A stretch of DNA of 42,316 bases from Chitinophaga pinensis (GTDB lineage Bacteria; Bacteroidota; Bacteroidia; SXHM01): contig CAMBRL010000014.1 in assembly GCA_945870105.1 (NCBI GenBank), forward strand, positions 1 to 42,316, written 5' to 3'. Position numbers and translations under genes: made by a program. Under the pieces are notes generated by a model, which worked only from the letters and a program-made list of their open reading frames with translations, had not been told where the DNA came from and did not search any database. This document shows positions 902-37,390 of the stretch, one piece after another (positions within the stretch are counted from its first letter, which is position 1; each line of letters opens with the position of its first letter).

Positions 902-921
902 ACAATGATTTTGGTCATATA
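902..921. promoter_or_regulatory. Inverted-repeat operator ACAATGAT-TTTG-GTCATATA (Crp/Fnr-like)
   Basis: ATGAT-N4-GTCAT; 19 nt further on the minus strand is CAATTTTG (875-882), a 7/8 match to TAnnTTTG, upstream of the cytochrome starting at 776. Confidence 0.65.
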
Positions 922-1054
922 ATTTAATGTTCCTAGTCATGATTATAAATTTTAGCTAAGAGCCTGTTTAAGTTTTAACTAATAATGTTTTTATAAATAT
1001 CACTTTTTTACAAAAAAATAGCTCTACAAATTTTTTGAATTATCATTCGCTCAA

Positions 1055-1074
1055 ACAATGATTATCATCATAGT
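1055..1074. promoter_or_regulatory. Inverted-repeat operator ACAATGAT-TATC-ATCATAGT
   Basis: ATGAT-N4-ATCAT in the divergent cytochrome/narK intergenic region. Confidence 0.6.
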
Positions 1075-1122
1075 TTGCATTTTTATTTATCAACAATATA
1101 AACTGACATAAGTCATTTGTAA

Positions 1123-1142
1123 ACTATGATGGGAATCATTGT
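1123..1142 (+). promoter_or_regulatory. Inverted-repeat operator ACTATGAT-GGGA-ATCATTGT plus -7 element TACATTTG (1163-1170)
   Basis: Palindrome 20 nt upstream of a perfect TAnnTTTG element, upstream of narK. Confidence 0.7.
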
Positions 1143-1241
1143 ATCTGTCGATTCATCACCAATACATTTGTTGCGAAATTTTTAATCTTTTTCTTTTGAC
1201 AAAAAAATATAACAACCTTCATCTATAATATTATAATATAT

Positions 1242-2972
1242 ATGGGAAATTTTAAAACTTTTTTAAAAGCAGGGCACGCACCCACCCTTTTTGCGTCTTT
1301 CCTTTATTTTGATTTTTGTTTTGCTATTTGGGTTTTGAACGGAGCTATGGCTCCGTTCATCAGCGAAGAGTTCAATCTTACTCCTGGGCAAAAAGGGTTT
1401 ATGGTTTCTATTCCTATTCTGGCAGGGGCATTAATGCGATTCCCTCTTGGAGTATTAGCTCAATACATTGGTAGGAAATATGCATCTCTGGTAGAGATGG
1501 GATTAATCCTGATAGCATTGGTATACGGATATTTTATGGTTGATACCTATTCTGAAGTATTGAATATGGGCGTTCTGCTTGGCATTGCCGGGGCAAGTTT
1601 TGGGGTTGCGCTTTCTTTGGGCTCAGGATGGTATCCCCCAAAATACAAAGGACTGGCAATGGGAATTGCAGGAGCTGGAAACAGCGGCACTGTTCTGGCA
1701 ATGCTGTTTGCCCCCCCGCTTGCCACTGAATTCGGATGGCAGGCAGTATATGGAATGGGTGCCATCTTTATGTTGATACCAATGCTGGTGATGATAATCT
1801 TTGCCAAAGAACCTCCCGATGTACATAAGCAGAGTTTTCTGGAACATATCAAATGTCTGTTTGAAAAAGATGGGTGGGTTTTCAACCTAATTTATATCAT
1901 CACTTTTGGAGGGTTTATTGGATTATCCAGTTTCCTTCCCACTTATTTTCATGATCAGTTTGGAGTAACAAAAGTGGAAGCCGGGCAGCTCACTATGCTC
2001 GCAGCTCTCATGGGAAGTGCTGTTCGGGTGGTAGGCGGATGGATTTCTGACCGTTGGGGAGGAGTTAATTCTCTTAAACTGATGTTTGTAATTATTATCA
2101 TCTGCATGTTTATTGCATCTTTCCAACTCGATCTGGTAAGTACCACCATCCTATTCATGGTTACATTCGCAGCTTTGGGAGCAGGTAATGGGTCGCTGTT
2201 TCAGCTAGTGCCATTGCGCTGGCCCCTTACCACAGCAGTGGCTGGCAGTATGATTGGCGAGATTGGCGCATTGGGAGGCAGCATCATTCCCAATGCAATG
2301 GGTCAATCAAAACAACTGACTGGCTCCTTCCAATATGGCTTCCTCATATTTTTAGGTGTCGCAGTTCTTGCTTTGGTTGTTCTTCAGGTAGCCCAGTACA
2401 AATGGACCAAAACCTGGGCAGAAAAAGGCGGCAGGGCTCGTATCCGCAAAGAAGAAATCGGACTTAAAATTCAAGAACACATTCCGGGATTACAAACTGT
2501 TTTGGCAAAGGCCGCAGTAAAAGGTGCAGAATTTTCTTACCAGACTATCATTTACCCAGTAGGGAATTCGGAACTGGCAGATAAAGCACGGGAACACGCT
2601 GCCTATCTGTCAAAAACCACTGGTTCTAAAATAGTTTTACTATATGTAAATGAAAAATTCCATAGCACAGGTGTTTTAGCCACTGATTCTCCTGAATGGG
2701 CTAAGATACGGGAAGGATGGATAAACGAAGGAAAACAAATTCTGATTGCCGAAGCCAAGAAGCTCAATGACCTGAATGTAACAAATATTGAAGCTGTGTT
2801 CGGTCAAGGTGATGTTGCCTCCGAGATTGTTGCTATTGCAAAAGAAAGAAGAGCTGAACTGATTTTGCTTGCAAGTCACTTAGCCTCACCATTAGGCAAA
2901 TTATTGATGGGGAGCAGGACTTTTGAGGTATTTAAAGAAGCACCGTGCCCGATATTAAGAATCGTAAGATAA
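1242..2972 (+). CDS. narK: NarK-type nitrate/nitrite MFS transporter with C-terminal universal stress protein (UspA) domain
   Basis: 12-TM MFS-like sequence (GNGSLFQLVPLRWP, GGWISDRWGG) followed by about 140 aa ending LILLASHLASPLGKLLMGSRTFEVFKEAPCPILRIVR, typical of USP. Confidence 0.85.
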   Translation: MGNFKTFLKAGHAPTLFASFLYFDFCFAIWVLNGAMAPFISEEFNLTPGQKGFMVSIPILAGALMRFPLGVLAQYIGRKYASLVEMGLILIALVYGYFMVDTYSEVLNMGVLLGIAGASFGVALSLGSGWYPPKYKGLAMGIAGAGNSGTVLAMLFAPPLATEFGWQAVYGMGAIFMLIPMLVMIIFAKEPPDVHKQSFLEHIKCLFEKDGWVFNLIYIITFGGFIGLSSFLPTYFHDQFGVTKVEAGQLTMLAALMGSAVRVVGGWISDRWGGVNSLKLMFVIIIICMFIASFQLDLVSTTILFMVTFAALGAGNGSLFQLVPLRWPLTTAVAGSMIGEIGALGGSIIPNAMGQSKQLTGSFQYGFLIFLGVAVLALVVLQVAQYKWTKTWAEKGGRARIRKEEIGLKIQEHIPGLQTVLAKAAVKGAEFSYQTIIYPVGNSELADKAREHAAYLSKTTGSKIVLLYVNEKFHSTGVLATDSPEWAKIREGWINEGKQILIAEAKKLNDLNVTNIEAVFGQGDVASEIVAIAKERRAELILLASHLASPLGKLLMGSRTFEVFKEAPCPILRIVR

Positions 2973-3021
2973 ATTCAATAATAATACAATCGCATTACAA
3001 ACAACTAAAACCAAAATCATT

Positions 3022-4365
3022 ATGGCAACATGGCTAACAAAATGGGAACCCGAAAACCCTGATTTTTGGGAAAGTACAGGTAAATCAATCGCCTGGAGAG
3101 TACTAACAATAACAACAATTTCACTTATCCTCTCTTTCGCTACCTGGTTTATGATGAGCGCCATTGTTACCAAACTACCGGGCATAGGATTTAAGTTTAC
3201 CAAAGACCAACTCTTCTGGTTAGCCGCCATACCTGGTCTGGCAGCGGGATTGCTCCGTTTAGTTCATACATTTTTATTGCCCATTTACGGTTCGCGCCAT
3301 GTTATCAGCATAGCAACCTTTATTAAAATAATACCAGCCATAGGGCTTGGTCTTGCTGTAATGAACCCCACAACACCCTTCTGGGTATTTATGGTGTTAG
3401 CTTTTACCTGCGGTTTCGGAGGAGGCGACTTCTCATCCTACATGCCAAGCACAAGTATGTTTTTTCCTAAAAGATTGCAGGGAACTGCATTAGGTATTCA
3501 GGCGGGTATCGGAAATTTTGGTGTGAGCGTTGCACAATTTATGACACCTGCCATGTTGGGCGTTGCCACTTACGGTGCAGCCGAAGTTTTTACCAAAGTT
3601 GATCCTAAAACAAAAGAAGTATTGGGCACCTCAGAAATATATTTGCAAAGCGCAGCTTTCTGGTATGTTCCTTTATTGGTAATACTTGCAATAGCTTCCT
3701 GGTTCCTGATAAAAAGCATACCGGTGAAAGCATCTTTTAAAGAACAGTTGGATATATTTAAAGATAAACACACCTGGTTTTGCACTATAACCTATGTAAT
3801 GACTTTTGGAGGATTTTCAGGGCTTGCAGCCATATTTCCCTTAATGATAAAAACTATTTACGGAGATTTTGCCGGAGCCCCCGATCCATTGAAATATGCG
3901 TTCTTAGGTCCCCTGATTGGAGCAGGCAGCCGCGTATTATTTGGCTTTATAGCCGATAAAGTAGGAGGTGCAGTTTTAACAACCCTCACAGGAATAGGCT
4001 TAATCATAGGTTGCGTAGCAATGGTTCAATTAGGGTTATTAACACCCACATCCGTTGAACAGTTTCCTATGTTTCTTTACCTGATGCTGTTCCTGTTTTT
4101 TATTACAGGAATGGGCAATGCCGCCACCTTCCGTCAATACCCTATTATATTTGGAAAAAATCCTCGCCAGGCAGCAGGTGTAATAGGTTTTACAGCAGCC
4201 ATTGCAGCTTTTGGTCCTTTCATTTTCGCAAAATCAGTAAGCGCGGTAATGAACAGCACGGGTAATGCAAACGGTTTCTTTTATGCCATAGCAGTTTTCT
4301 TTGCTTTTGCCACAGCAATCAACTGGTGGTATTATAACCGCAAAGACTGCGAAAGACCAAGTTGA
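3022..4365 (+). CDS. narK: NarK-type nitrate/nitrite MFS transporter
   Basis: MFS sequence with FGGGDFSSYMPSTSMFFPKRLQGTALGIQAGIGNFGVSVAQF and GMGNAATFRQYP, typical of NarK. Confidence 0.85.
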   Translation: MATWLTKWEPENPDFWESTGKSIAWRVLTITTISLILSFATWFMMSAIVTKLPGIGFKFTKDQLFWLAAIPGLAAGLLRLVHTFLLPIYGSRHVISIATFIKIIPAIGLGLAVMNPTTPFWVFMVLAFTCGFGGGDFSSYMPSTSMFFPKRLQGTALGIQAGIGNFGVSVAQFMTPAMLGVATYGAAEVFTKVDPKTKEVLGTSEIYLQSAAFWYVPLLVILAIASWFLIKSIPVKASFKEQLDIFKDKHTWFCTITYVMTFGGFSGLAAIFPLMIKTIYGDFAGAPDPLKYAFLGPLIGAGSRVLFGFIADKVGGAVLTTLTGIGLIIGCVAMVQLGLLTPTSVEQFPMFLYLMLFLFFITGMGNAATFRQYPIIFGKNPRQAAGVIGFTAAIAAFGPFIFAKSVSAVMNSTGNANGFFYAIAVFFAFATAINWWYYNRKDCERPS

Positions 4366-4524
4366 ATAATGAACCTGAATGGACTGAATGTGGACTTAAG
4401 TAAAGAAATACTTCTCCATAAACACGCTTAACAGAACCTAAATGTTTGATTTATCTACCTCTTCCGCATCTGTAAAGCCCCAAAAAGACCATTTGGCTCA
4501 TCTGTGCGCGTCAGGAAACAGGAA

Positions 4525-4818
4525 ATGGAGCTATTTTATATCGTGGTGGCTGAGGTATTGTATCCAATGGAGCTATCCTGTTCAATGTGGCGCGTGGCAT
4601 CAAACGAAATGGAGCTATCCTGTTCAATGTGGAGCGTGGCATCAAACAAAATGGAGCTATCCGGTTCAATGTGGCGCGCGGCATCAAGCAAAATGGAGCT
4701 ATCCCGTTCAATGTGGCGCGTGGCATCAAACAAAATGGAGCTATCCGGTTCAATACCTCAGCCACCACTATAGTAAATGGAGCTATTGGGTTCAATGTGC
4801 CGTCTACCACCCATTAAA
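4525..4818. repeat. Tandem array 1: seven 42-bp units (ATGGAGCTATCCgGTTCAATGTGGCGCGTGGCATCAAACAAA)
   Basis: ATGGAGCTAT recurs at 4525, 4567, 4609, 4651, 4693, 4735 and 4777, exactly 42 bp apart. Confidence 0.95.
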
Positions 4819-4892
4819 CAGTAACTAAAAGCCCGGTTTGTCGGTCAAAAACGGGATTAAACAGTAAGCAAAAAAACAAAAACAAAAAACAA

Positions 4893-6299
4893 ATGAAAAA
4901 CAACACTCCCCCCCTCATCCGCAGTATCACCCTTACCCTGTTCAGTGCTGTCGCCCTGTCATTGCTATGTATAATGTCTGCTAAGGCTCAAACCCCGGCA
5001 GCAACAACACCAACCGAAGCCAGCGGAACCATCAACATCCAATACATGGCACGGTCAGAATACCGCCACGGCTTTCAGGCATTGGCAGATACCAACCAAA
5101 AGGCGGGAATATTTACCTCGCAACGAGCACGACTGGGGTATCAATACAACGCAAAAAAATTTCGTTTAGCAGCAACCGTGCAAGATGTAAGAGTATGGGG
5201 TTCTACCAACAACCTGAGTGTTGACAGCACCGGAAAACTTTCATTGTTTGAAGGCTGGGGTGAATTATTATTCACCAATAAACTCAGCCTCAAAGTTGGA
5301 AGACAACAACTTTCTTATGATGACGACAGAATTTTAGGTTCATTAGATTGGGCAATGCAAGGAAGAAGACATGACCTTGCGCTGCTCAAATATGTCAATG
5401 ACAGCGTGCTTACTGTACATGCAGGATTTGCCTACAATCAGGACAAAGAACAAAGCAAATCAAACATCTATAACCAGAAAGCAAATTACAAATCCATGCA
5501 ATTTATCTGGCTATTCCGCCAGTTTAAGAAAGCAAATATCAGTGCATTATTTTTAAATAACGGACTGCAATACACCGAAACCGATACAGCCGGAAAAGTA
5601 ACCTACGGAGCACAGTATTTCAGCCAAACAGCTGGAGTGCGTACCTCACTTAACTTTGGAAAAATATCATCTATCATTTATGTTTATTATCAATTGGGTA
5701 AAAATGCAGCCGTACTAAAAGCTGATAAACGCCCCAAAGATTTAAGTGCTTATGATATTTCTGCTGAAATAACATACAAACCGATTACACAATTAGGTGT
5801 TACATTAGGTGCTGAACTATTATCAGGAACCAGTCAGGATGCCAGCACCTCACTAACAAAAAGCACATCGTTCTCCCCATTGTATGGAACCAATCACCGC
5901 TTCAACGGATACATGGATTACTTCTATGTGCTCAACCATGCCAACAGCGTAGGCTTAAATGATATCTACTTAAAAGTAAATACCAACTTCAAAAAAATTA
6001 CCGCCTCTCTGAATGGACATTATTTCATGGCAAATGCCGATATTAAAGATGTTGCAGCCACAACAAACACAGGTTCTTTTGTTGCCATGCCAAGCTACTT
6101 GGGCATTGAACTTGACTTAACGTTAACCTATAATTTTACGGAAGGAGTTGGAATACAAGGCGGGTACTCGCAAATGTTCGGAACCGAATCACTAAAAGCA
6201 ATAAGAGGCGGACAGGTAAATGCAACCAGCAACTGGGCATACCTCATGGTGCTTATCCGTCCCAACATAAAATGGCCAAAAACAGGATTGAAATTATAG
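4893..6299 (+). CDS. Alginate-export-domain-like outer-membrane porin
   Basis: Signal peptide; GTINIQYMARSEYRHGFQALADTNQKAGIFTSQRARLGYQYNAKKFRLAATVQDVRVWG; aromatic-rich beta-barrel; resembles porins near narK in Bacteroidota. Confidence 0.7.
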   Translation: MKNNTPPLIRSITLTLFSAVALSLLCIMSAKAQTPAATTPTEASGTINIQYMARSEYRHGFQALADTNQKAGIFTSQRARLGYQYNAKKFRLAATVQDVRVWGSTNNLSVDSTGKLSLFEGWGELLFTNKLSLKVGRQQLSYDDDRILGSLDWAMQGRRHDLALLKYVNDSVLTVHAGFAYNQDKEQSKSNIYNQKANYKSMQFIWLFRQFKKANISALFLNNGLQYTETDTAGKVTYGAQYFSQTAGVRTSLNFGKISSIIYVYYQLGKNAAVLKADKRPKDLSAYDISAEITYKPITQLGVTLGAELLSGTSQDASTSLTKSTSFSPLYGTNHRFNGYMDYFYVLNHANSVGLNDIYLKVNTNFKKITASLNGHYFMANADIKDVAATTNTGSFVAMPSYLGIELDLTLTYNFTEGVGIQGGYSQMFGTESLKAIRGGQVNATSNWAYLMVLIRPNIKWPKTGLKL

Positions 6300-6309
6300 T
6301 TATTTAGAA

Positions 6310-6345: not shown

Positions 6346-6399
6346 GAAAGTCTGCTCTCATCTTTGCGACAGTATATAAAATTGAAAAATAATGACAAG

Positions 6400-8909: not shown

Positions 8910-8929
8910 TCTATGATGCAAATCATTTT
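8910..8929 (+). promoter_or_regulatory. Inverted-repeat operator TCTATGAT-GCAA-ATCATTTT
   Basis: ATGAT-N4-ATCAT; weak -7-like GTTATTTG (8949-8956) 19 nt downstream; upstream of the hemerythrin gene. Confidence 0.6.
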
Positions 8930-8975
8930 CCAATAGCTAAATCATGCCGTTATTTGCAAATAAACATAACGGTAT

Positions 8976-9692
8976 ATGAAAATAATAGATACAGCAACCG
9001 GCAAGCGAATTCTGCAACCCGGTGAAAAACTAAAATCTGCAGAAGTAAAAAATGAACTACTGAAACGTGATGTTGAAAAAGGATTGGAAGAAACCGAACA
9101 CTCGCCCATGGATCCGCCAAAAGCCTATGACCAGCCAGGAAAGCTGAAAGTCTCATTTGATGAAATGGAAAAACCATTAAAAGAATTTGTTGAAGAACAC
9201 AAAGAAGTTATTGAACAGGTTGACCTGTTTGAAAAAGCATTGGTTCAGTTTAAATTAAGCGGATATAAAGTTGACCATAAAATAAACGAATTATTCGGAA
9301 ATTTTTTCAAATACTTTGACAATCACATTCTCCCACACAACGAAAAAGAAGAAAAAACTTTATTCCCTGTTTTAAATAAAAAACTACTAGCAGCAGGTGA
9401 ACATAGCGTTGGCCAAGTGCCCGTTACAGCTATTGATGTAATGGAAGACGACCATGTTAAATTTATTCAGCTCGGTGCATTAACATTCAATTTCTTTGGA
9501 ATAGCAACCCGTATTCAAGATACTGCATCAAGAATTTTTATTCTTGATACTGCCTATGAAAATGCAAGGGAATTAATAGAACTACTGAAGTTGCACATCT
9601 ACCGTGAAGATTACACATTGTTTCCTTTAGCGCAAAAATATCTGAGCAAAGAAGAATTTGAGCAATTAGAGAAAGAAATGAATTTACTCTAA
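8976..9692 (+). CDS. Hemerythrin HHE-domain protein
   Basis: FFKYFDNHILPHNEKEEKTLFPVL, MEDDHVKFIQL, LHIYREDYTLFPLAQKYL. Confidence 0.8.
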   Translation: MKIIDTATGKRILQPGEKLKSAEVKNELLKRDVEKGLEETEHSPMDPPKAYDQPGKLKVSFDEMEKPLKEFVEEHKEVIEQVDLFEKALVQFKLSGYKVDHKINELFGNFFKYFDNHILPHNEKEEKTLFPVLNKKLLAAGEHSVGQVPVTAIDVMEDDHVKFIQLGALTFNFFGIATRIQDTASRIFILDTAYENARELIELLKLHIYREDYTLFPLAQKYLSKEEFEQLEKEMNLL

Positions 9693-10696
9693 TGGAAACA
9701 GCCGGGAAACAAATTATTGACCAATTCGGCAGAGTTCACGATTATCTGCGTATTTCACTTACCGAGCGGTGTAACCTGCGCTGTTTCTATTGCATGCCCG
9801 AGGAAGGAATTGCTCTGAGACCTCGCTCAGTATTCATGAATAAAAAAGAAATTGTTGAGGTTGCTAAAACTTTTGTTTCTCTAGGTGTAAATAAAATCAG
9901 GCTAACAGGGGGCGAACCATTAGTGAGAAGTGATGTAAGAGAAATTATTCAAGCGTTATCTCAATTGCCTGTTGATCTCGCAATAACAACAAATGGAGTG
10001 TTGGTAGATAATTTTATTGATACTTTTAAGTCAGTCGGTTTAAAATCCATCAATGTTAGTTTAGATTCACTGCAAAAAGAAAAATCAAACAGAATTACTC
10101 GCAGAGAATACTTTGACAAAATTATGTCAAACATCAACCTGCTTATTAAGAATAATTTTCACGTTAAATTGAATGCAGTAATTATAAGAGATGTTAATGA
10201 TGATGAACTGATTGACTTCATTGAATTTACTAAATACAACAATGTTCATTTTCGCTTCATTGAATTTATGCCCTTTGATGGAAATAAATGGGATTGGCAA
10301 AAAGGAGTATCGTTCAAGGAAATAATGAATACGATAGATTTAAAGTATAGCAATTCGGTGTTGCGCCTTGCAGACAGGAAGAACGATACAGCAAAAAATT
10401 TCATGATAAAAGATTATTTCGGGACATTTGCTGTTATCAGTTCAGTATCAAATCCTTTTTGCGATACATGCAACAGAATACGATTAACAGCAGATGGAAA
10501 AATAAAAAATTGTTTGTTTTCTAATTCCGAAACGGACATTCTTTCAGCACTCAGAAAAGGGAAAGATATACAACACCTAATTCTTGAAACAATAAATAAT
10601 AAAAAATCTTTCAGAGGAGGAATGAATACTTTTGAGCAATTATCTGATTCTGCGCAACGCAATAAAAATAGAACGATGGTTGCTATCGGGGGATAA
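9692..10696 (+). CDS. moaA: GTP 3',8-cyclase (molybdenum cofactor biosynthesis)
   Basis: Radical-SAM CNLRCFYCMP, TGGEPLVR, C-terminal CDTCNRIRLTADGKIKNCLF cluster site, terminal GG. Confidence 0.93.
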   Translation: METAGKQIIDQFGRVHDYLRISLTERCNLRCFYCMPEEGIALRPRSVFMNKKEIVEVAKTFVSLGVNKIRLTGGEPLVRSDVREIIQALSQLPVDLAITTNGVLVDNFIDTFKSVGLKSINVSLDSLQKEKSNRITRREYFDKIMSNINLLIKNNFHVKLNAVIIRDVNDDELIDFIEFTKYNNVHFRFIEFMPFDGNKWDWQKGVSFKEIMNTIDLKYSNSVLRLADRKNDTAKNFMIKDYFGTFAVISSVSNPFCDTCNRIRLTADGKIKNCLFSNSETDILSALRKGKDIQHLILETINNKKSFRGGMNTFEQLSDSAQRNKNRTMVAIGG

Positions 10697-10715
10697 ATAA
10701 AAATAATTGTTACTC

Positions 10716-11417
10716 ATGAAATCTAAAACCAAACAAAAAAACGTTATTGCTAAAAGTGAAAATATTCTTTATAAACATTGCTCAAAAGAATGGCATCTGA
10801 TTATTGATAATACTATTCAATTATTCAATTTTAAGAAGAACGAAACCATATTTTCTGAAGGAGCTCCAGTAAGAGGAATTTACATAATTAATAGTGGAAA
10901 AGTAAAAGTTTTTTCAAAATTCAGGAAAGATAAAATACGAATATTGCGCTTAGCCGGAGATGGTAAAATTCTTGGGCATCGCGGCTTCTCAACAACTAAT
11001 TACCCTGTTTCTGCTGTTGCACTTATTCCTACTACAGTTTCATTTATTTCAAATGAAATTTTTATTACTTTGGTAAAGGCTAATCCTGAATTCAGCATTT
11101 ATTTAATCAACTTTTTTGCAGAACAACTCAGACAATCTGAAGATCGAATGAAAAGTTTGATGCTTTCTGATGTAAAACACAAGATAGCTGAAATACTCTT
11201 CATCCTTATTGATTCTTTTGGTTTTGATGCCAAAGAACCTAATATGTTAAGCTATTGCCTATCGCGAAAAGATTTTGCAGCCATGGCATGAATAACTTAT
11301 GAGACAACTGTAAGAACACTTGCATATTTTCAAAGAAGAAAGCTAATTAAGATTGAAGGTAAATCAATAAGGATTATCAATACTGTAGGGCTAAAAAAAT
11401 ATACCATTCCATATTAA
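10716..11417 (+). pseudogene. Crp/Fnr-family regulator interrupted by in-frame TGA (11289-11291) within the HTH
   Basis: Cyclic-nucleotide-binding-like N-terminus; SRKDFAAMA-[TGA]-ITYETTVRTLAYFQRRKLIKIEGKSIRIINTVGLKKYTIPY-TAA in one frame. Confidence 0.85.
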
Positions 11418-11699: not shown

Positions 11700-11719
11700 T
11701 ATATGATGAAAATCATATA
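11700..11719. promoter_or_regulatory. Inverted-repeat operator TATATGAT-GAAA-ATCATATA (10-bp arms when extended)
   Basis: Perfect inverted repeat; TACTTTTA (11739-11746), a 7/8 match to TAnnTTTG, 19 nt downstream; upstream of RIC. Confidence 0.75.
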
Positions 11720-11800
11720 ATATTTCATGTTACTGTAATACTTTTACGATAGCAAAAAAGACAGGCAGGTCTTTTATATTAATCTTAATCAACTAAAAAA

Positions 11801-12754
11801 ATGGAAACTATAGAAATACTTGATGTAACAGCAATTGAGCCCAGATTAAAACATCCAACAATTTTCGAAAAATATGATTCTCTTTTAGCGGGCGAATCAT
11901 TCGTTATTCATAACGACCATGACCCCAAACCGCTTTACTATCAATTGTTGGCAGAAAGAGGCAATTCTTTTACCTGGCACTATATTGAAGAAGGCCCTCA
12001 ATTCTGGAAAGTAAGTATTAAAAAAAATCAAACAGGTGAAACAGAGCCAACCATTGGTGATTTGGTTACAAAAGACTATCGCAAAGCTGAAGTGTTTAAA
12101 AAGTTTGGGTTGGACTTTTGTTGCGGTGGAAAAAAAACACTTACAAAAGCCTGCAGAGAAAAAGGTCTGGATGTTTTAAGAATAGAGAAAGAATTAAAGG
12201 CTATTGATGAACAACCGCTTATTCCTTCACAGGATTTCAACCAATGGAATCTTGATGTTCTTGCAGAATACATTATAAATACCCATCACAAATATGTCTT
12301 ACAGGCTATCCCTGTAATTTTTCAATACACACAAAAAGTAGCAAAAGTGCATGGCGAAAGGCATCCAGAAGCAGTTGAAATTGCTGCAAAATTTTTAATT
12401 GTAGTTGATGAATTAAATCGACACATGATGAAGGAGGAAAATATTCTTTTCCCGTACATTAAGAAATTAGCACTTGCAAAAAGAAATAATGAACAAGCTG
12501 AATCATCTCCCTTTGGTTCTATTGAAAATCCAATCAGAATGATGGAAGCGGAACATGATGAAGTGGGAGATGTAATGGATCAGATAAATAAACTTACCAA
12601 CAGCTACGCACCACCTGCCGATGCTTGTACTACTTTTCGTTTATCTTATGCAAAACTGAAAGAGTTTGAAGATGATTTACATCAACACATTCATTTAGAG
12701 AATAACATTCTTTTCCCGAAAGCTATAGCATTGGAAAAAGAATTGGCAGGGTAA
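11801..12754 (+). CDS. scdA: Iron-sulfur cluster repair protein RIC/ScdA/YtfE family with N-terminal DUF2249 domain
   Basis: DUF2249-like IEILDVTAIEPRLKHPTIFEKYDSL; ScdA_N TIGDLVTKDYRKAEVFKKFGLDFCCGGKKTL; di-iron HHE helices HHKYV, HMMKEENILFPY, EHDEVGD, HIHLENNILFPK. Confidence 0.92.
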   Translation: METIEILDVTAIEPRLKHPTIFEKYDSLLAGESFVIHNDHDPKPLYYQLLAERGNSFTWHYIEEGPQFWKVSIKKNQTGETEPTIGDLVTKDYRKAEVFKKFGLDFCCGGKKTLTKACREKGLDVLRIEKELKAIDEQPLIPSQDFNQWNLDVLAEYIINTHHKYVLQAIPVIFQYTQKVAKVHGERHPEAVEIAAKFLIVVDELNRHMMKEENILFPYIKKLALAKRNNEQAESSPFGSIENPIRMMEAEHDEVGDVMDQINKLTNSYAPPADACTTFRLSYAKLKEFEDDLHQHIHLENNILFPKAIALEKELAG

Positions 12755-15231: not shown

Positions 15232-15251
15232 AGTATGATATTTATCATTAT
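15232..15251 (+). promoter_or_regulatory. Inverted-repeat operator AGTATGAT-ATTT-ATCATTAT plus -7 element TATTTTTG (15271-15278)
   Basis: Palindrome with a perfect TAnnTTTG 19 nt downstream. Confidence 0.75.
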
Positions 15252-15296
15252 TAAGAAGCTTTATTACCTGTATTTTTGTTACATAAAAAAAACAAG

Positions 15297-18980: not shown

Positions 18981-19045
18981 TTATTTTTTCAGAGAATTGG
19001 TTTGGATAAAAAAGCGGACAAATCTATGGTCGCTTAAAACGGAAT

Positions 19046-19065
19046 TGTATGACAGCTATCATAGA
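19046..19065 (+). promoter_or_regulatory. Inverted-repeat operator TGTATGAC-AGCT-ATCATAGA plus -7 element TACATTTC (19085-19092)
   Basis: ATGAC-N4-ATCAT with a 7/8 TAnnTTTG match 19 nt downstream; upstream of qNOR. Confidence 0.7.
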
Positions 19066-19112
19066 ATGGTGATATAATGTGTATTACATTTCTCACCGCA
19101 AATTTTCAGTTT

Positions 19113-21407
19113 ATGAAAAAGGAAAATGATTTTCTCTCATTTATGATGAACCCAAAGAATTGGTGGGTTCCACTTTCAGTAATTTTTGTAATAAGTTTTG
19201 GAGGTGTTTTTATGATAGGTTGGGAAACCTATAATGATGCACCACCCATCGGTGATTTTAAAAACAAAAATGGGGAGCTTATTTTTAGTAGTGAAGATAT
19301 TGTTGAAGGGCAGAAAGTATTTCAGCAATATGGTTTGATGGATTATGGAAGTATGTTTGGTGACGGTGGTCTTCGGGGTTCCGATTTTACAGCTGAAGCG
19401 CTGCATAACATTACCCTTTCCATGCGTTTATATTATGCAGATTCAATTGGCAATGATGCAGCAGAAGTACTAGTAAAAAAAGAACTAAAAGAAAATACAT
19501 ATATTAAAGAAAAAAACTCCGTAAAGCTTTCATCTGCGGGAATAAAGGGATATTCAGATTTAATAATTTATTATCAGGATTTTTTTTACACTAAACAGAT
19601 AAAATCGGAAGGTGCTATTACCCGCGTTTTTATTCCCGACACCAGTTCCATAAAAAATTTAGCAGCATTTTTTTATTGGGGAGCTTGGGTTTGCGCAGCC
19701 GAACGCCCGGGAGAAGATTACAGCTATACCCATAACTGGCCTTTTGACAAAGAAGCAGGAAATTATCCAAGCCACAGTGTTATCTTATGGAGTGTATTAG
19801 GATTATTTGGATTTATACTGGGGCTTTGTGCTGTTCTTTATTTCTATTCTCAATTTGAACAATTAAATATTGAAGCCTATACTAAAAATGCAGTGCCGCT
19901 TATTACCGCCAACACTATAATAGAATTTAAGCCATCACCCTCTCAAAAGGCTGCGTTTAAATTTTTGTTTGCAGGTGTATTACTGTTTTTTGTGCAGGTA
20001 GTTTGCGGGATATTAACAGTTCATGATTTCGTTGGCTTGTTTGATTTGTTTGGCATTAACTGGGCAACATTAATTCCCTTTGTTATTGCCCGTAGCTGGC
20101 ATGTTCAGTTATCAGTATTCTGGATTTCGGCATGTTGGATTGGAGCTTCTCTTTTTGTGCTTCCCTTAATTTCAAAGCAAGAGATTAAAGGGCAGAAACA
20201 GTGGGTGAATTTATTGTTCTGGTTAACACTTGCAGTTGTTCTGTTTTCGTTCATCGGCATATACCTCGGACCTTTGGGATTAGCCGGAAAAAACTGGCAC
20301 TGGCTTGGTCACCAGGGTTGGGAGTTTGTGGAGATGGGAAAGCTATACCAATACGGTTTGCTGCTGGTTTTTATGATTTGGGCATTTGTAATTTATCGCG
20401 GATTAAAACCTGCTTTGGTAAAAAATAAACCTTGGAGTTTGCCAAACTGGCTTATTTATACTGTGGTGTGTGTGTTATGTTTATTCTTTTCCGGTTTTGT
20501 AGCCAGTCCCGAAACAAATTTTGTAATTGCCGACTTTTGGCGTTGGTGTGTGGTACACATGTGGGTAGAGGCTTTTTTTGAAGTTTTTGCCACCGTCATA
20601 ATCGGATATTTTATGGTGCTCATGGGCTTGGTAAGCAAGCAAGCTACAGAGCGTGTAATTTACATTGCAGCTATTTTGTTCTTAGGATCTGGGTTGCTGG
20701 GTATTTCACATAACTTTTACTGGAATGCAAAGCCGGTTGCCACAATGGCATTAGGCAGTATCTTTTCTACCCTGCAGGTTGTTCCGCTTATTTTGCTATC
20801 TCTTGAAGCATGGCGTTTCAGAAGGCTGCCCGATTTTATTAATGGAAAGAATGGCGCAAAACAATTTGCCATGAATGATATCTTTCTTTTTTTGGTGGGT
20901 GTAAACTTCTGGAATTTTTTTGGTGCGGGAGTGTTTGGGTTGATTATCAATTTACCGGTTGTAAATTATTTTGAACATGGAACCTATCTCACCGTCAATC
21001 ATGGACATGCTGCATTGATGGGTGTTTACGGAAACCTTTCAATTGCAGTTGTTCTGTTTTGCTCAAAACTTTTAATTAATAACAACCAGTGGAATGAACA
21101 GTTGATGCGCATTGTTTTCTGGTCGCTGAATATTGGATTAGCATTGATGGTTTTACTTGATTTATTTCCTGCAGGTATTTACCAGTTAAATGCAGTTCTT
21201 AAAAATGGATTTTGGTATGGCAGATCACAAGAGTTCTTAAGCACAGAATTATTCCAGTCGCTCACTTGGCTAAGGATAATAGGTGGTTCTATTTTCTTTT
21301 TGTCAGGAGTATTGCCTTTAATCTATTTTATTGTTTCAAGAACAAACGATTTAAAAAATGCAACAACTGTATCGGATTTTAATGCAGAAAACTCTTTTGA
21401 AAAGTAA
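19113..21407 (+). CDS. norZ: Quinol-dependent nitric oxide reductase (qNOR)
   Basis: N-terminal NorC-like extension fused to NorB; RSWHVQLSVFWISACWIGASLFVLP, WRWCVVHMWVEAFFEVFATVIIGYF, GISHNFYWNAKP, LTVNHGHAALMGVYGN. Start at 19113 favoured because 19077 is upstream of the predicted -7 element. Confidence 0.95.
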   Translation: MKKENDFLSFMMNPKNWWVPLSVIFVISFGGVFMIGWETYNDAPPIGDFKNKNGELIFSSEDIVEGQKVFQQYGLMDYGSMFGDGGLRGSDFTAEALHNITLSMRLYYADSIGNDAAEVLVKKELKENTYIKEKNSVKLSSAGIKGYSDLIIYYQDFFYTKQIKSEGAITRVFIPDTSSIKNLAAFFYWGAWVCAAERPGEDYSYTHNWPFDKEAGNYPSHSVILWSVLGLFGFILGLCAVLYFYSQFEQLNIEAYTKNAVPLITANTIIEFKPSPSQKAAFKFLFAGVLLFFVQVVCGILTVHDFVGLFDLFGINWATLIPFVIARSWHVQLSVFWISACWIGASLFVLPLISKQEIKGQKQWVNLLFWLTLAVVLFSFIGIYLGPLGLAGKNWHWLGHQGWEFVEMGKLYQYGLLLVFMIWAFVIYRGLKPALVKNKPWSLPNWLIYTVVCVLCLFFSGFVASPETNFVIADFWRWCVVHMWVEAFFEVFATVIIGYFMVLMGLVSKQATERVIYIAAILFLGSGLLGISHNFYWNAKPVATMALGSIFSTLQVVPLILLSLEAWRFRRLPDFINGKNGAKQFAMNDIFLFLVGVNFWNFFGAGVFGLIINLPVVNYFEHGTYLTVNHGHAALMGVYGNLSIAVVLFCSKLLINNNQWNEQLMRIVFWSLNIGLALMVLLDLFPAGIYQLNAVLKNGFWYGRSQEFLSTELFQSLTWLRIIGGSIFFLSGVLPLIYFIVSRTNDLKNATTVSDFNAENSFEK

Positions 21408-25542: not shown

Positions 25543-25581
25543 TGTTTTTTTATGCAAAGTAATTCACTATACAGAGCACAA

Positions 25582-25632: not shown

Positions 25633-26952
25633 CTATTTTATGGTAATCAATTTTCTCAGAGCTGGTAAAACCACCATCAGCATTCCTACAAGAATTCCTA
25701 TGCCTGCAAAAACAAATATGGCAAGAACAGGTGCTATCTTTTGCATAATTTCCTGAAAGGATAATTTGTTTTCTGCTGTGTAATATCCTTTTGCTATCCC
25801 TGCTACAACAAGGCTAATGAAGAATATGAGCAAACCTATATTAACTATCCAAAAACCCCAACGGATTAGTTTGCCTGATTTATCATTGAAATTTTGATCA
25901 GACACCTGTTGAATAATCAGAAAGCAGGAACTAATCAGTATCATTGTGTTGATGCCTATTGTGCTGCCCATAGCGTGGGCAACGGTAATATGAGTGCCAT
26001 GTGTATAAATGTTTACAGCAGGTATTGAAATAAGCAAAGCCAGAATAAGGTTGATAAAAATCCACACATCTGCAGCTATCATAAAACGATAGGGAATGTT
26101 GCCGAAATTTATTTTTGCCTGTTGCATAGTGCTTTTGAAACTCCATATTATTTTAGCGAGTATGAGCAATTCGGTCATACTGATGAAATATGCAAAGTGC
26201 CGTATCCAGGGGGCTGAGGGAACAATGTAGATATGGTGTGCCCAGCCAAACATTAGGTTGGTAAGGCCAAGTAGATACATAAGAAATGACAAACGCGAAA
26301 GTGCTACTTTAGTATCGCCACTTAGTTTTTCCATTACAAAAATGGCTGTGCCGTAAACCAGCATATTCCATGAACCAACCAATGCGCCATATGATTTCCA
26401 CTGAACGGTTAATTCCCTAACCACATTATCGCGAAAATAAGGCAGCAGCCATAGATATGATTCTGAGAATGTGAAAAGGAAAAAGAAAATGCCCGTTGCC
26501 CACATCCACAGGTAAACCGGCCAGGGCTCTTTCTTTTTTACCACCGTTTTAAAATAGTTGAAGCCAAACAGTATCCATCCAATTATGATTGGTATTGCCA
26601 GCAGGGGCGGAAACTCCCAGTATTCTCTGCCACCGAACTTCCCCATTATATAGCTTGCTATAATAAGCAGCCCGGTTATAATAAAAAGAGCAAAGTGTAT
26701 CCGGGGCAATCGTTTTGAATATAAAGTAAGATTGCAGTGGTTAGGAAGGTAATAATAAATACCACCCACAGCAGCCGAAAATATCCATGCCACCACCAGC
26801 GACACATGCAGCGGCCGGCTTTTAAAAAAAGGCAGCACCTCAAAAAATCCAGGGAAAATAAATTGCAAGCCGCTGATAGTCCCGAAAAAAATACCCAGCA
26901 ACAACGCCAGTAAACCAGTAATGATAAAAAGTATGCCTGTAGATTTATTCAT
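25633..26952 (-). CDS. norB: NorB-like catalytic subunit of NO reductase, with variant ligand motifs
   Basis: RPLHVSLVVAWIFSAAVGGIYYYLP, GWAHHIYIVPSAPW, IYTHGTHITVAHAMGSTIGINTMIL; directly downstream of norC. Confidence 0.8.
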   Translation of the reverse strand: MNKSTGILFIITGLLALLLGIFFGTISGLQFIFPGFFEVLPFFKSRPLHVSLVVAWIFSAAVGGIYYYLPNHCNLTLYSKRLPRIHFALFIITGLLIIASYIMGKFGGREYWEFPPLLAIPIIIGWILFGFNYFKTVVKKKEPWPVYLWMWATGIFFFLFTFSESYLWLLPYFRDNVVRELTVQWKSYGALVGSWNMLVYGTAIFVMEKLSGDTKVALSRLSFLMYLLGLTNLMFGWAHHIYIVPSAPWIRHFAYFISMTELLILAKIIWSFKSTMQQAKINFGNIPYRFMIAADVWIFINLILALLISIPAVNIYTHGTHITVAHAMGSTIGINTMILISSCFLIIQQVSDQNFNDKSGKLIRWGFWIVNIGLLIFFISLVVAGIAKGYYTAENKLSFQEIMQKIAPVLAIFVFAGIGILVGMLMVVLPALRKLITIK

Positions 26953-26953
26953 T

Positions 26954-27376
26954 CTAATGTTTGATTAACTCCACCGTTCCGTCTGCATTAATACTAAAAT
27001 CACGCACAGGCGATATTCCTGTTTTGTCAACATAGGTAAGGTATGCAATAAGAGCGTTTATTTCTTCATCTGATAAATTAAAGTTGGGCATTTTTTGTGT
27101 TCCTGTTTTTAAAAAGGCACGGGCAAGCAGTTCTCCTTTCCCTTTTGTTGATATAACATTGGTAAGATCCGGCCCCATGTATCCGCCCAATCCATAAAGT
27201 TGATGACAGGCGGTGCAGTTGTATTTCTGGTAAAGTAGTTTACCTTGTTTGGCTTCTGCGGTAAGGTATGCTGTGCCTTTATCTTCATCAGTGGCATGGG
27301 TTAATACTATTGCTGTGTAGATGATAAAAGATGTAAATAAACTCCAGAATAATAAGCGCTTTTGTAACGGTTTCAT
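26954..27376 (-). CDS. norC: NorC-type membrane-anchored cytochrome c
   Basis: N-terminal TM anchor; GKLLYQKYNCTACHQLYGLGGYMGPDLTNV; KMPNFNLSDEEINALIAYL. Confidence 0.9.
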   Translation of the reverse strand: MKPLQKRLLFWSLFTSFIIYTAIVLTHATDEDKGTAYLTAEAKQGKLLYQKYNCTACHQLYGLGGYMGPDLTNVISTKGKGELLARAFLKTGTQKMPNFNLSDEEINALIAYLTYVDKTGISPVRDFSINADGTVELIKH

Positions 27377-27446
27377 AGTACTGTGTTTGTTGTAAAACTA
27401 TTGTTTTTGCAACAAAAAGTAAATAACCGCTCAATATTTTTTTTGA

Positions 27447-27466
27447 ACTATGAGCGTAATCATAGT
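27447..27466 (-). promoter_or_regulatory. Inverted-repeat operator ACTATGAG-CGTA-ATCATAGT
   Basis: One mismatch between arms; upstream of norCB; -7 element at the expected position is weak (GTTATTTA). Confidence 0.6.
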
Positions 27467-27580
27467 TTAAGGGGTTGAGGTCGCTTTTCTTTGACACCCA
27501 GAAAAATATGTTGATGGTTATTTTAGGAATAACTAAAAAAGGTAACACAGTAAAGGCGAGTAGTTTTTTGTGGTAAAAAA

Positions 27581-32497: not shown

Positions 32498-32539
32498 TGT
32501 TGAAAGTAATTCAGTAAAAATCTCCGAATAATAAATTAA

Positions 32540-33265: not shown

Positions 33266-33326
33266 CACACCATTTCTAAATAAAACCTTAACTATAAACG
33301 AAAGCCTTGAAATTAATACTAAAAAA

Positions 33327-33947
33327 ATGGCAAAAAACATCTCCCTGATATCGCTTATTATTACAGCCGCTGCATTCACCACCAGCGCCCAAACCCTTAA
33401 ACCATTTTCTGATATGGACGATAAATGGGGCTACCAGAATGAAAGCTATCAAACAGTCATCCCCTGCCAGTTTGAAGCAGCAAAAGAATTTTCAGAAGGA
33501 ATGGCAGCAGTTAGAAACAAAGTAAAAGTGCCTGATGGTAATGGATTATTCCAATTCGATTATCTCTGGGGATACATAAACCTGACCGGTAAAATAGTTA
33601 TACCGTGCCAGTATTCTGAAGCGCTGATTTTTTTAGGCGAATGTGCCGTAGTAGCCAAAGGCAATAAATATGCATTGATAGATAAAAAAGGAAAAGCAAT
33701 AACCCCTTTTAAATACGATGAAATAGCATACATGGCCGAAGAGCTTACAGCGGTAAACATTGGCAAAACCCAAGATGGAGATGAGCCGGGCTTATGGGGA
33801 TTTATAGACAAAACCGGCAAAGAAGTAATACCTCTCAATTATTACAAAGTAGAATCATTCTCAGAATATGATGCCACTGCTAAAGTAACAGACCAAAATT
33901 TCGAGACTTATTATATAGATACAAAAGGCATATGCGTAAAAAAATAA
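33327..33947 (+). CDS. Secreted WG-repeat protein
   Basis: MAKNISLISLIITAAAFTTSAQ signal; KWGYQNESYQTVIPCQF, LWGYINLTGKIVIPCQY, GLWGFIDKTGKEVIPLNY. Confidence 0.87.
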   Translation: MAKNISLISLIITAAAFTTSAQTLKPFSDMDDKWGYQNESYQTVIPCQFEAAKEFSEGMAAVRNKVKVPDGNGLFQFDYLWGYINLTGKIVIPCQYSEALIFLGECAVVAKGNKYALIDKKGKAITPFKYDEIAYMAEELTAVNIGKTQDGDEPGLWGFIDKTGKEVIPLNYYKVESFSEYDATAKVTDQNFETYYIDTKGICVKK

Positions 33948-33964
33948 GAAATAGTAACAAGCAA

Positions 33965-34642
33965 ATGAAAATTCACATTCTATTTCTAATAATACTTATT
34001 CTTTCAGCCATTACCTCCTGCAATAACACTACTAAACCTGAAACAGAAGACACAACCGATAAAGCACTTAAAGCCGATACCCAAAAAGGCAAACAACTTT
34101 TTGCAACCTGCATAGCCTGCCACGGAAATAATGGTCAGGGCATACAAAACATGAATGCACCCAACCTTGCAGCACAAGATGCATGGAACCTTAACCGTCA
34201 GCTAACTAATTTCAAAACAGGAATTCGCGGAACCCATGCCGATGATATTTATGGCGCACAAATGGCGCCCATGGCGCAAACCCTTGCTGATGAACAGGCA
34301 ATAGTTGATGTGGTTGCCTATATTAAAACACTTTCTGCCACAGCAAATGAACAAACAATAAAAGGCGATATAGTAAAAGGAGAAGACTATTACAACATGG
34401 CTTGCGGCTCATGTCACGGCACCAAAGGAGCAGGCAATGAAAGCCTTAATTCGCCTAAGCTGACAGGCGTAAACGACTGGTATCTTGAACGCCAGGTGCT
34501 GAATTTTAAAAAAGGAATTCGCGGCAGCCATGCCGATGATAAATTTGGCGCCCAGATGAAACAAATTGCAGGCACCACTGAAGAAGGGCAAATGTTGAAT
34601 GATATTATAGCATACATACACTCCGTTGAAGAACTACAGTAG
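33965..34642 (+). CDS. Di-haem cytochrome c lipoprotein
   Basis: Lipobox ITSCNN; two repeated domains with CIACHGNNGQG and CGSCHGTKGAG. Confidence 0.88.
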   Translation: MKIHILFLIILILSAITSCNNTTKPETEDTTDKALKADTQKGKQLFATCIACHGNNGQGIQNMNAPNLAAQDAWNLNRQLTNFKTGIRGTHADDIYGAQMAPMAQTLADEQAIVDVVAYIKTLSATANEQTIKGDIVKGEDYYNMACGSCHGTKGAGNESLNSPKLTGVNDWYLERQVLNFKKGIRGSHADDKFGAQMKQIAGTTEEGQMLNDIIAYIHSVEELQ

Positions 34643-35813
34643 CCTTATTTTTTTTCTTACTATTGTTTTTCTAACGGCTTGCAAAAAAGAAAACACCGGC
34701 AATATAAAACTCGCTCAAAACTGTCCGCCCGGATTTGAACTTACAGCCGATAACAAATGTCTTTGCCGTTCACTTTATCATCAATATAACTCACTCAACA
34801 ATGCCGGTGTAGGTGGTTTGCAAACAGGTTTGCCGCCAATGCGCGATGGCTTTTCACCGCAGCAAATTGATTTAGGACGCTATCTTTTTTTTGACCCGGT
34901 TTTATCGGGCAATCAAAAACTTTCCTGCGCAAGTTGCCATAACCCTGCATTAGGTTTTAGTGACGGGCAAGCACGTAGTACTGGGTTTAACGGACAAATG
35001 CTTAACCGCGCTGCACCTACGCTTTGGAATGTTGCTTTTCTTAAATCATTCTTCTGGGATGCCCGTGCATCAACACTTGAAGAGCAAATGCAGGGACCAC
35101 TGTATGCAGAAAATGAAATGAATAACACGGAAGAAAAATTGCTGGTTTCGCTCAATGGAATTCCGCAATACATAGAATTATTTATGCAGGCTTTCCCAGA
35201 GAAGCAATTTGAACAAATTCAAGCTGATGAAATTTATACCGCGCTTGCTGCATTCGAATCATCTTTGATTTCACTCAATAGCCGTTATGATTTATATGCA
35301 CATGGATACCACGAATCCTTAAAGCAAAACGAAATTGAAGGAATGAATGTGTTCCGTTCTTTTGTAGCACGTTGTGCCGAATGTCATACACCACCACTGT
35401 TTACCAATCAGCAAATTGCAGTATTGGGAACACCCGAACAGGATGATTTGCCTTTTGATCCGGGAGCAGAAAAAACCTTTAATGACCCCAGTATGCGAGG
35501 AGGATTTAAAGTGCCAACATTACGTAACATTGCACAAACAGCACCCTACATGCACTCCGGCAAATTTGCATCCTTGCAGGATGTTATCACTTTTTACAAC
35601 AGCGGGCGCGGACATGCAGTGCCAGAAAATGAAAAGCTTAGCCTTCACTGGCATATCTGGGAACCCAACCTCACCCCATACGAATTAGAACGGGTAGTTG
35701 ATTTTCTTAATACCCTCACAGACGAAAGCTTTAAACCCACAGCACCGGACCAACTGCCATCTGCATTGCAGACCGTGCACCTGAAAAAAAATAATACTTT
35801 ACAGCCAGAATAA
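34626..35813 (+). CDS. Di-haem cytochrome c peroxidase / MauG-family lipoprotein
   Basis: Lipobox LTACKK; CASCHNPALGFSDG, CAECHTPPLFTNQQ; TLRNIAQTAPYMHSGKFASLQDVITFYNSG. Confidence 0.9.
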   Translation: MKNYSSLIFFLTIVFLTACKKENTGNIKLAQNCPPGFELTADNKCLCRSLYHQYNSLNNAGVGGLQTGLPPMRDGFSPQQIDLGRYLFFDPVLSGNQKLSCASCHNPALGFSDGQARSTGFNGQMLNRAAPTLWNVAFLKSFFWDARASTLEEQMQGPLYAENEMNNTEEKLLVSLNGIPQYIELFMQAFPEKQFEQIQADEIYTALAAFESSLISLNSRYDLYAHGYHESLKQNEIEGMNVFRSFVARCAECHTPPLFTNQQIAVLGTPEQDDLPFDPGAEKTFNDPSMRGGFKVPTLRNIAQTAPYMHSGKFASLQDVITFYNSGRGHAVPENEKLSLHWHIWEPNLTPYELERVVDFLNTLTDESFKPTAPDQLPSALQTVHLKKNNTLQPE

Positions 35814-35837
35814 TTTTACACCCAAACAAAACCCTAC

Positions 35838-37331
35838 ATGAAAACAATCTTTAAATTCCTTGGTATGCTCCTCGCTGCAGCCATTCTTTTTGGTGCAGGA
35901 TACCTTGTCTCCAAAAAACAAAAAAGCAATGTTCCGCCTCCGCCAACCGTTAATTATTTCAGCGGTGCGGGAACAAAAAATGCTTCGAGATTGCAGCAAA
36001 CAGAAGAACGCAATGTGTTAGAAGTTAAACAAGGACAATCAATACAGGAAGCTGTAAACAAAGCAAAATCAGGCGACCTCATCCGTGTTTACCCGGGCAT
36101 CTACAAAGAAACTGTTTACATCGATAAAGACAATATCTATTTGCAAGGCCTTATCCGCGAAGGCGAATACCCTATTCTGGAAGGCGAAAAAACCCGCAAC
36201 GATGCCATTCTCTATTCGGGTAACAATATCGTGATTGAAAATTTCAAAATCATGAATTACAAAGGCAACGGCATTATGGGACAAGCCGGAAATAATTTTA
36301 TAATCCGCAATAATTACATCATTGACACCGGGGTTTACGGAATTTTTCCCGAGTTTGGCACAAACGGACTAATATCGCATAACATACTTTCAGGCATTGA
36401 AGATGCCGCCATTTATGTTGGCATGTGCGATAACATTGATGTGCTCTACAACGAAGTATTCAAAAGTGTTGCAGGTATTGAAATAGAAAACTCACGCCAT
36501 GCACTGGTAGAGGGTAATTATGTGCACGAAAATACCGGAGGCATTTTAGCGTTCATTACTCCGGGCTTACCTATAAAAACCTGTTTTGATGTTATCATCC
36601 GCAACAACTATATCATCAATAATAATCTTGAAAATTTTGGCGAACCGGGTTCCATTGTGGCAAGCTTGCCGCGGGGCACCGGTATTATTGTTATGGCTGC
36701 CGATGAGGTAACCATAGAAAACAACATCATAACCGGAAACGATAATGCAGGTATTGTAATGACCGACCTGAGTTTTATTGCACACATAACAAAAGACCCC
36801 GAATCAGAACCTAATCCCGACCGCATTGTTATTCTTGATAACATTATGAGCAATAACGGCAGTAATCCTATTGACGAACTAAAAGCCGCAAAAATTGCTT
36901 ACATGGTTACTGCTAAAGGAGTGGATATTGTTGCCGTAGGTGGCGGAACAGGAAGTTGCATCCGAAACAAAAGCAACTATGTAACCATAGGATTAGATAG
37001 CTATGCGCAATGTCAATCAACAGGAACAGCAAATGTGTTATCGTATATGCTTGCCGAACCTGCACCACCCCGTGATACTAAAACCGAAGACAGAGGGCGA
37101 TTAATTTATTATGGCATTTGCAGCGGTTGCCACTCTTATAACCTGCGCATGATTGGCCCCCCAACCATGACCATACAAGCCTTATATAAAGACAATCCGC
37201 AAGGTATTGCTGATTATATTGCCAAGCCCGTTCATAAGCGCACAGACTTTCCCGAAATGCCACCGCAGGATTATTTGTCAGCAGAAAAAAGATTAGAAGT
37301 AGCAAAGTATATGCTATCAATTGATAAGTAG
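35838..37331 (+). CDS. Parallel beta-helix protein fused to C-terminal cytochrome c domain
   Basis: Repeats NNIVIENFKIMNYKGNGIMGQAGNNFIIRNNYI...; C-terminal GRLIYYGICSGCHSYNLRMIGPPTMTIQALY...EMPPQDYLS. Confidence 0.85.
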   Translation: MKTIFKFLGMLLAAAILFGAGYLVSKKQKSNVPPPPTVNYFSGAGTKNASRLQQTEERNVLEVKQGQSIQEAVNKAKSGDLIRVYPGIYKETVYIDKDNIYLQGLIREGEYPILEGEKTRNDAILYSGNNIVIENFKIMNYKGNGIMGQAGNNFIIRNNYIIDTGVYGIFPEFGTNGLISHNILSGIEDAAIYVGMCDNIDVLYNEVFKSVAGIEIENSRHALVEGNYVHENTGGILAFITPGLPIKTCFDVIIRNNYIINNNLENFGEPGSIVASLPRGTGIIVMAADEVTIENNIITGNDNAGIVMTDLSFIAHITKDPESEPNPDRIVILDNIMSNNGSNPIDELKAAKIAYMVTAKGVDIVAVGGGTGSCIRNKSNYVTIGLDSYAQCQSTGTANVLSYMLAEPAPPRDTKTEDRGRLIYYGICSGCHSYNLRMIGPPTMTIQALYKDNPQGIADYIAKPVHKRTDFPEMPPQDYLSAEKRLEVAKYMLSIDK

Positions 37332-37370
37332 CACTTGTAATAAAAATATCTGCTTTTGGTAAACCCTGAA

Positions 37371-37390
37371 ACTATGATTGCAATCATAGT
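37371..37390 (+). promoter_or_regulatory. Fully palindromic operator ACTATGATTGCAATCATAGT plus -7 element TAATATTG (37410-37417)
   Basis: Perfect 20-bp palindrome, 7/8 TAnnTTTG match 19 nt downstream; upstream of the glycyl-radical activase. Confidence 0.78.

Follow-up and report, generated by a model that had tools for sequence, protein, structure and literature searches.

A recurrent Crp/Fnr-type palindrome at a fixed distance from the -7 element, borne on a tRNA-Glu island of Chitinophaga pinensis

The 42,316-nt contig CAMBRL010000014.1 of Chitinophaga pinensis (assembly GCA_945870105.1), analysed over its whole length and called the window here, carries a recurrent palindrome that we read as the putative operator of a Crp/Fnr-family activator. 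It stands in front of genes for nitrate transport, nitric oxide (NO) reduction and iron centre repair, mostly followed by a box resembling the Bacteroidota -7 element (TAnnTTTG). All ten palindromes listed in a preliminary description of this DNA are present at their positions. The genome is designated G000, the window is its contig C14, and G002 and G006 are relatives used for comparison. The features are as follows.

3-809 (-): di-haem cytochrome c, first gene of the nar operon; open reading frame (ORF) with two CxxCH motifs; the contig ends here and narGHJI follows in G006
875-882 (-): -7-like box CAATTTTG, 19 nt from operator 902, 8.8 bits, read directly
902-921 (-): operator ACAATGATTTTGGTCATATA, 18.6 bits, upstream of the cytochrome c gene heading narGHJI; same site before cytochrome c-narGHJI in G006
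1055-1074 (no strand): second operator, 16.4 bits, 68 bp from 1123
1123-1142 (+): operator for the narK-like transporter, 16.8 bits; orthologous site in G002
1163-1170 (+): -7-like box TACATTTG, 20 nt from operator 1123; 20-nt gap also in G002
1242-2972 (+): MFS transporter (narK-like) with universal-stress-protein domain (Pfam)
8910-8929 (+): operator for the hemerythrin-moaA-crpW operon, 18.2 bits; conserved in G002
8949-8956 (+): -7-like box GTTATTTG, 19 nt; G002 identical
8976-9692 (+): hemerythrin-domain protein (Pfam)
9692-10696 (+): moaA, radical SAM (Pfam)
10707-11417 (+): CrpW, Crp/Fnr regulator with E..R recognition helix; in-frame TGA at 11289-11291
11700-11719 (+): operator for the RIC (ScdA/YtfE-type) gene, 18.4 bits; conserved in G002 and other RIC loci
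11739-11746 (+): -7-like box TACTTTTA, 19 nt; G002 identical
11801-12754 (+): RIC-type di-iron repair protein, DUF2249-ScdA_N-hemerythrin (Pfam)
15232-15251 (+): operator for an unknown protein of 161-168 aa, 18.8 bits; conserved in G002
15271-15278 (+): -7-like box TATTTTTG, 19 nt; G002 identical
19019-19026 (-): box TAGATTTG toward the epimerase gene, 19 nt; G002 has TAGCTTTG
19046-19065 (no strand): divergent operator, qNOR (+) and epimerase (-), 16.3 bits; conserved in G002
19085-19092 (+): box TACATTTC toward qNOR, 19 nt; G002 identical
19077-21407 (+): qNOR-type nitric oxide reductase (Pfam COX1 and NorB cytochrome c-like domain)
25555-25562 (-): -7-like box TTACTTTG, 19 nt, 8.0 bits
25582-25601 (-): operator for mbnP and the CCP_MauG di-haem cytochrome, 12.1 bits; present in G006
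25633-27376 (-): norC-norB, cNOR-type (Pfam cytochrome c and COX1)
27420-27427 (-): box GTTATTTA toward norCB, 19 nt; G002 identical
27447-27466 (no strand): divergent operator, norCB (-) and gene cluster from 27778 (+), 10.1 bits; conserved in G002
27486-27493 (+): box TTTCTTTG toward the 27778 gene cluster, 19 nt; G002 identical
37371-37390 (+): operator for the glycyl-radical activase/enzyme pair, 17.0 bits; in G006 the half-sites are kept and the centre is changed
37410-37417 (+): -7-like box TAATATTG, 19 nt; same box in G006
37458-40772 (+): glycyl-radical activating enzyme and PFL-like glycyl-radical enzyme (Pfam, NCBIfam)

The gene behind site 902, previously labelled simply a di-haem cytochrome, is a cytochrome, but G006 identifies it as the head of the narGHJI operon. 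Sites 19046 and 27447 serve divergent genes, with a box on each side. The boxes at 8910 and 27447 had been called weak; both are identical in G002 and are therefore probably functional. The annotated ORF starts at 15276, 19077 and 25557 (mbnP) overlap a -7-like box, so that the true starts should lie downstream. For site 1055 we found no proper -7-like box in either direction, and it is probably accessory.

Enrichment and spacing of the operator

The whole 3.6-Mb genome contains 16 matches to WATGAYN4RTCATW, compared with four to the reversed pattern, and eight of the 16 fall in the window. We also scanned the window with a weight matrix built from other genomes only, near-identical relatives being excluded; it gave 11 matches above 10 bits, namely all ten sites and an additional overlapping one (1100). 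Twenty Markov shuffles of the window gave a mean of 1.1 such matches and a maximum of three.

The box follows the palindrome after 19 nt, or 20 nt at 1123, as had been described, except at site 1055. This spacing recurs elsewhere in the same genome, where six independent sites beyond the window have the box at 19-20 nt; it was seen at moeA/FNR-B, FNR-A, bcrC, an operon on contig C35 and a lipoprotein gene on contig C53. Among 162 oriented palindromes in 80 Bacteroidota loci around RIC genes, 50 relaxed -7-like boxes lie at exactly 19 nt, compared with about two at other distances, and control palindromes, in which the inner spacing was altered or the halves were scrambled, gave 0-8 sites without a distance peak. 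A second peak at 41-42 nt in these loci stems mostly from near-identical Pontibacter RIC promoters. At four loci (L099, L100, L117 and L118), independent operators have a -7-like box at 41-42 nt, two helical turns beyond 19; these are candidate class I promoters.

Conservation between diverged relatives follows the same geometry. We aligned 13 promoters of G006 and G002 on the operator, the pairs being chosen by matrix scan; as the same operator was read both ways in three cases, they represent 10 operators. Operator half-sites were 95% identical and the six informative box positions were identical in 78 of 78 cases, whereas identity was 52% in the spacer and about 50% in the flanks. The letters of the spacer have diverged and its length is fixed at exactly 19 nt, with 20 nt at narK in both genomes. 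There is thus one fixed distance between operator and core element, as expected of class II promoters, and an assignment to class II-type Crp/Fnr promoters with a Bacteroidota -7 element is strongly supported by the sequences. The spacing would be compatible with an operator centre at -41.5 if the 8-bp box covers about -12 to -5.

Regulon content

Targets were listed from the window and the annotation of G006; several names beyond the family matches were read by eye from ORF starts and are provisional. They comprise the cytochrome c-narGHJI operon, narK, hemerythrin-moaA-CrpW, RIC, the unknown gene, qNOR with the divergent epimerase, norCB, MbnP/CCP_MauG and the glycyl-radical enzyme, as well as moeA with the molybdenum-cofactor operon, a modE-like gene, FNR-A, FNR-B-hemerythrin and the benzoyl-CoA reductase operon. 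NarG and NarH exceed curated cut-offs, as do BcrC, BcrB and the ring hydrolase. The preliminary description had proposed a single anaerobic/NO regulon. Its unity is borne out by the common operator and the fixed class II-like spacing; its scope is wider than NO because nitrate reductase, molybdenum-cofactor synthesis, benzoyl-CoA reductase and regulators belong to it.

The benzoyl-CoA genes lie on the same genomic island as the other targets, and the operator precedes bcrC. G006 (C1:68007-90904; L147, L148) and contig C40 of G000 carry 4-hydroxybenzoyl-CoA reductase-like genes, BcrC/BcrB and a 6-oxocyclohex-1-ene-1-carbonyl-CoA hydrolase. Outside the island, a strong operator at C53:10892 (L025:6891) is followed at 19 nt by a TAGCTTTG box and then by the gene of an unknown lipoprotein, possibly a host-chromosome target of the island regulators.

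The tRNA-Glu island

The sites had been described as dispersed. Genome-wide, 13 of the 16 are confined to contigs C40, C14, C31 and C35, which belong to one integrated island, 115 kb in length and inserted in tRNA-Glu. G006 has their counterparts, genes and sites alike, side by side on a single contig at 74-178 kb. One edge of the island there consists of tRNA-Glu followed by a tyrosine integrase (Phage_integrase), and the other of a repeat of the tRNA-Glu 3' end, CCCCTACGGGCTAC, found at 63824 and 179203 of C1 (attL/attR). Empty sites exist in G003, G005 and G002, where proS, tRNA-Glu and aroA are directly adjacent, and G000 itself holds both occupied junctions (C40 and C35). The window's place inside the island of G000 is predicted from synteny with G006, as the draft contigs are unjoined. 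The cargo includes narGHJI, molybdenum-cofactor genes, the benzoyl-CoA reductase pathway, FNR-A and two other Crp/Fnr proteins. The regulon is thus a self-contained module, nearly all of which, along with its regulators, is borne by the island.

In G002 an equivalent gene set lies elsewhere, near tRNA-Met and a serine recombinase (C7:25290-26954, L154), possibly a second mode of integration; a search for a direct repeat matching tRNA-Met at the far end of this set found none. Among the ORF starts that were read, no tra genes were obvious, no search aimed at conjugation genes having been made.

Candidate regulators

Five Crp/Fnr helix-turn-helix matches were found in G000. One is FNR-A, a four-cysteine FNR (C31:24489-25247) with an operator just upstream. 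In alignment with solved FNR, CDECPTAQSSIFC and DSLICYF match the three N-terminal cysteines and the C122 position, the third cysteine being offset (C-x2-C-x8-C). The recognition helix retains E209/R213 and reads GTTTETAIR where solved FNR has GLTVETISR. With 103.9 bits against NCBIfam Fnr (NF008365), below the curated cut-off of 228, FNR-A is related to this subfamily model and lies outside it. Because the annotated ATG of FNR-A precedes the predicted -7 box, translation probably starts further downstream. Operators also stand upstream of FNR genes in other Bacteroidota.

CrpW, encoded in the window, finds its best matches of solved structure among generic Crp/Fnr proteins. Its TGA lies inside the DNA-binding helix, where L047 and the 99%-identical G006 copy (L051) have GGA (Gly). 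Recoding was rejected on the basis of the G006 codon, and we regard the TGA as a strain-specific nonsense mutation or an assembly error. A further Crp/Fnr protein of G000 (L001, contig C73), which has an E..R helix, is fused to a response-regulator receiver domain and also occurs in relatives without the island. The idea that a single helix residue (GTTTET or GTATET) sets operator choice was dropped: TTGAT is not in excess in several GTATET genomes (G189, G174 and G235), and it is in some GTTTET genomes.

Proposed mechanism and alternative explanations

The explanation that we favour, and consider probable, is that the palindrome is the operator of a Crp/Fnr activator acting at class II promoters of an island-borne regulon, with FNR-A as the likeliest activator. 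Activation itself, its signal and the identity of the binding protein we infer from the sequences. The operator would be ACWATGAY-N4-RTCATWGT. From its centre down to the first base of the -7 box there are about 29.5 bp, a spacing that would place the bound dimer next to RNA polymerase near -41.5, as at class II promoters. Under low oxygen, and possibly also in the presence of NO, the activator would induce one coherent group of genes, namely those for nitrate reductase and nitrate transport, both NO reductases, the repair proteins (RIC and hemerythrin), molybdenum-cofactor synthesis, MbnP/CCP-type cytochromes, the glycyl-radical enzyme and the benzoyl-CoA reductase pathway. CrpW, whose own operon is preceded by operator 8910, may be an NO- or haem-responsive partner that recognises this palindrome as well.

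FNR-A appears the likeliest activator, preferred over CrpW and not proven. Within the genus, the genomes with FNR-A (G000, G002 and G006) have 6, 6 and 9 strict-motif sites, and G001, G003, G004 and G005 have 1, 0, 0 and 1. Across 247 genomes, the strict motif averaged 6.5 (control 1.05) in those having an FNR-A relative at 1e-75 or better and 1.4 (control 1.0) in those in which none was found, a comparison that ignores phylogeny. This neglect is one of several points that weaken the proposed scheme. G000, G002 and G006 carry the island and CrpW too, so that island presence confounds the association of regulator and motif, and in the 247 genomes the motif correlates equally well with CrpW relatives and with FNR-A relatives. 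The motif is present in G211 (11 sites) and G202 (9 sites), neither of which has a close FNR-A, and some genomes have an FNR-A-like protein and lack the motif. In addition, a class II promoter does not account for site 1055.

CrpW must be taken seriously as another candidate activator or as a co-regulator. As an NO/haem-type sensor without the FNR cysteines it could be the main activator, FNR-A being secondary or upstream in a cascade such as that of FnrL and Dnr in Dinoroseobacter (PMC5398030). CrpW sits beside NO genes in the operator-controlled hemerythrin-moaA operon, has the E..R helix and correlates in presence with the motif (Spearman 0.39, 247 genomes), and G211 combines its 11 sites with a CrpW relative. 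However, this strain has kept all sites despite the TGA in the DNA-binding helix of CrpW, 35 genomes with FNR-A and without close CrpW still show a motif excess (mean net 2.8), and the operator precedes FNR genes in several Bacteroidota. We therefore judge a leading role of CrpW rather unlikely. Far less plausible is that the palindromes are repressor sites from which a dimer blocking RNA polymerase leaves upon NO or anoxia. Crp/Fnr proteins are able to repress, and sites 1055 and 1100, near 1123, are off the activator spacing. Repressor sites, however, tolerate varied positions, whereas the strict 19-nt gap and an operator upstream of the -7 box rather than over it correspond to activator geometry. 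Finally, chance or low complexity in an AT-rich genome, or transcription terminators, might be suggested by the base composition and by the C35 palindrome, which extends into a long perfect hairpin, but for the set as a whole this is refuted by the shuffle and reversed-pattern controls and by half-sites and boxes conserved between diverged relatives.

Relation to known systems

Class II Crp/Fnr control is known, as are mobile nitrate-respiration clusters with their own regulators. Our preferred scheme with FNR-A resembles the class II regulon of E. coli FNR (TTGAT-N4-ATCAA at -41.5) in the four-cysteine regulator, the TGA/TCA palindrome core, the single fixed activator spacing and the nitrate/anaerobic targets. 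It differs in the half-site, TATGA instead of TTGAT (FNR) or TGTGA (CRP), and in the promoter, where a TAnnTTTG -7 box replaces TATAAT. The canonical TTGAYN4RTCAA shows no enrichment in the genus (20/16, 23/25, 26/32). DNR/NnrR and HcpR2 regulons share Crp/Fnr control of nitrogen-oxide genes. The HcpR2 motif is GTAACnnnnGTTAC and its regulon comprises only hcp in most Bacteroides and P. gingivalis (PMC1274295), whereas here the motif is different and the regulon large. MalR/Crp regulons of Bacteroides are likewise examples of Crp-family regulation in Bacteroidota but are carbon-related. The nitrate conjugative element (NCE) of Thermus thermophilus with DnrS/DnrT consists of mobile nitrate/NO respiration clusters with their own oxygen-responsive regulators (PMC5748679, PMC6282519). 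It is alike in carrying both respiratory genes and regulators; in contrast, the present element is a Bacteroidota island in tRNA-Glu with an FNR-type operator at each operon and anaerobic benzoyl-CoA genes aboard.

How denitrification genes are switched in Bacteroidota is poorly known. In a study of metagenome-assembled genomes of Flavobacteriales, Saprospiraceae and Ignavibacteria, no evidence emerged that Crp/Fnr proteins control denitrification (PMC8510549), and our literature search, which left subscription journals largely outside, found no description of such an operator or island in Bacteroidota. The present analysis provides an explicit operator and a fixed promoter geometry for an unusual -7 element. 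It adds a candidate FNR, along with the mobile unit that bears all three, and therefore nitrate/NO respiration gene sets should be predictable from sequence across the phylum. Anaerobic aromatic degradation would be tied to the same switch as nitrate/NO respiration. A further proposal, for and against which we see about equal weight, is that this 115-kb element, inserted in a tRNA gene, transfers the complete set of anaerobic functions (nitrate respiration, NO handling, molybdenum-cofactor synthesis and benzoyl-CoA degradation) from one member of the Bacteroidota to another, with an FNR-type switch of its own. Because its TATGA-N6-TCATA operator differs from the canonical FNR box, it would be spared most cross-talk with other Crp/Fnr circuits, and every promoter would be fitted to the Bacteroidota -7 element.

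Clusters of strict palindromes were also seen in another family (G177, C62:23807-85113; G148, C1:625991-664844), with FNR-A and CrpW relatives nearby; they are possible further regulon islands.

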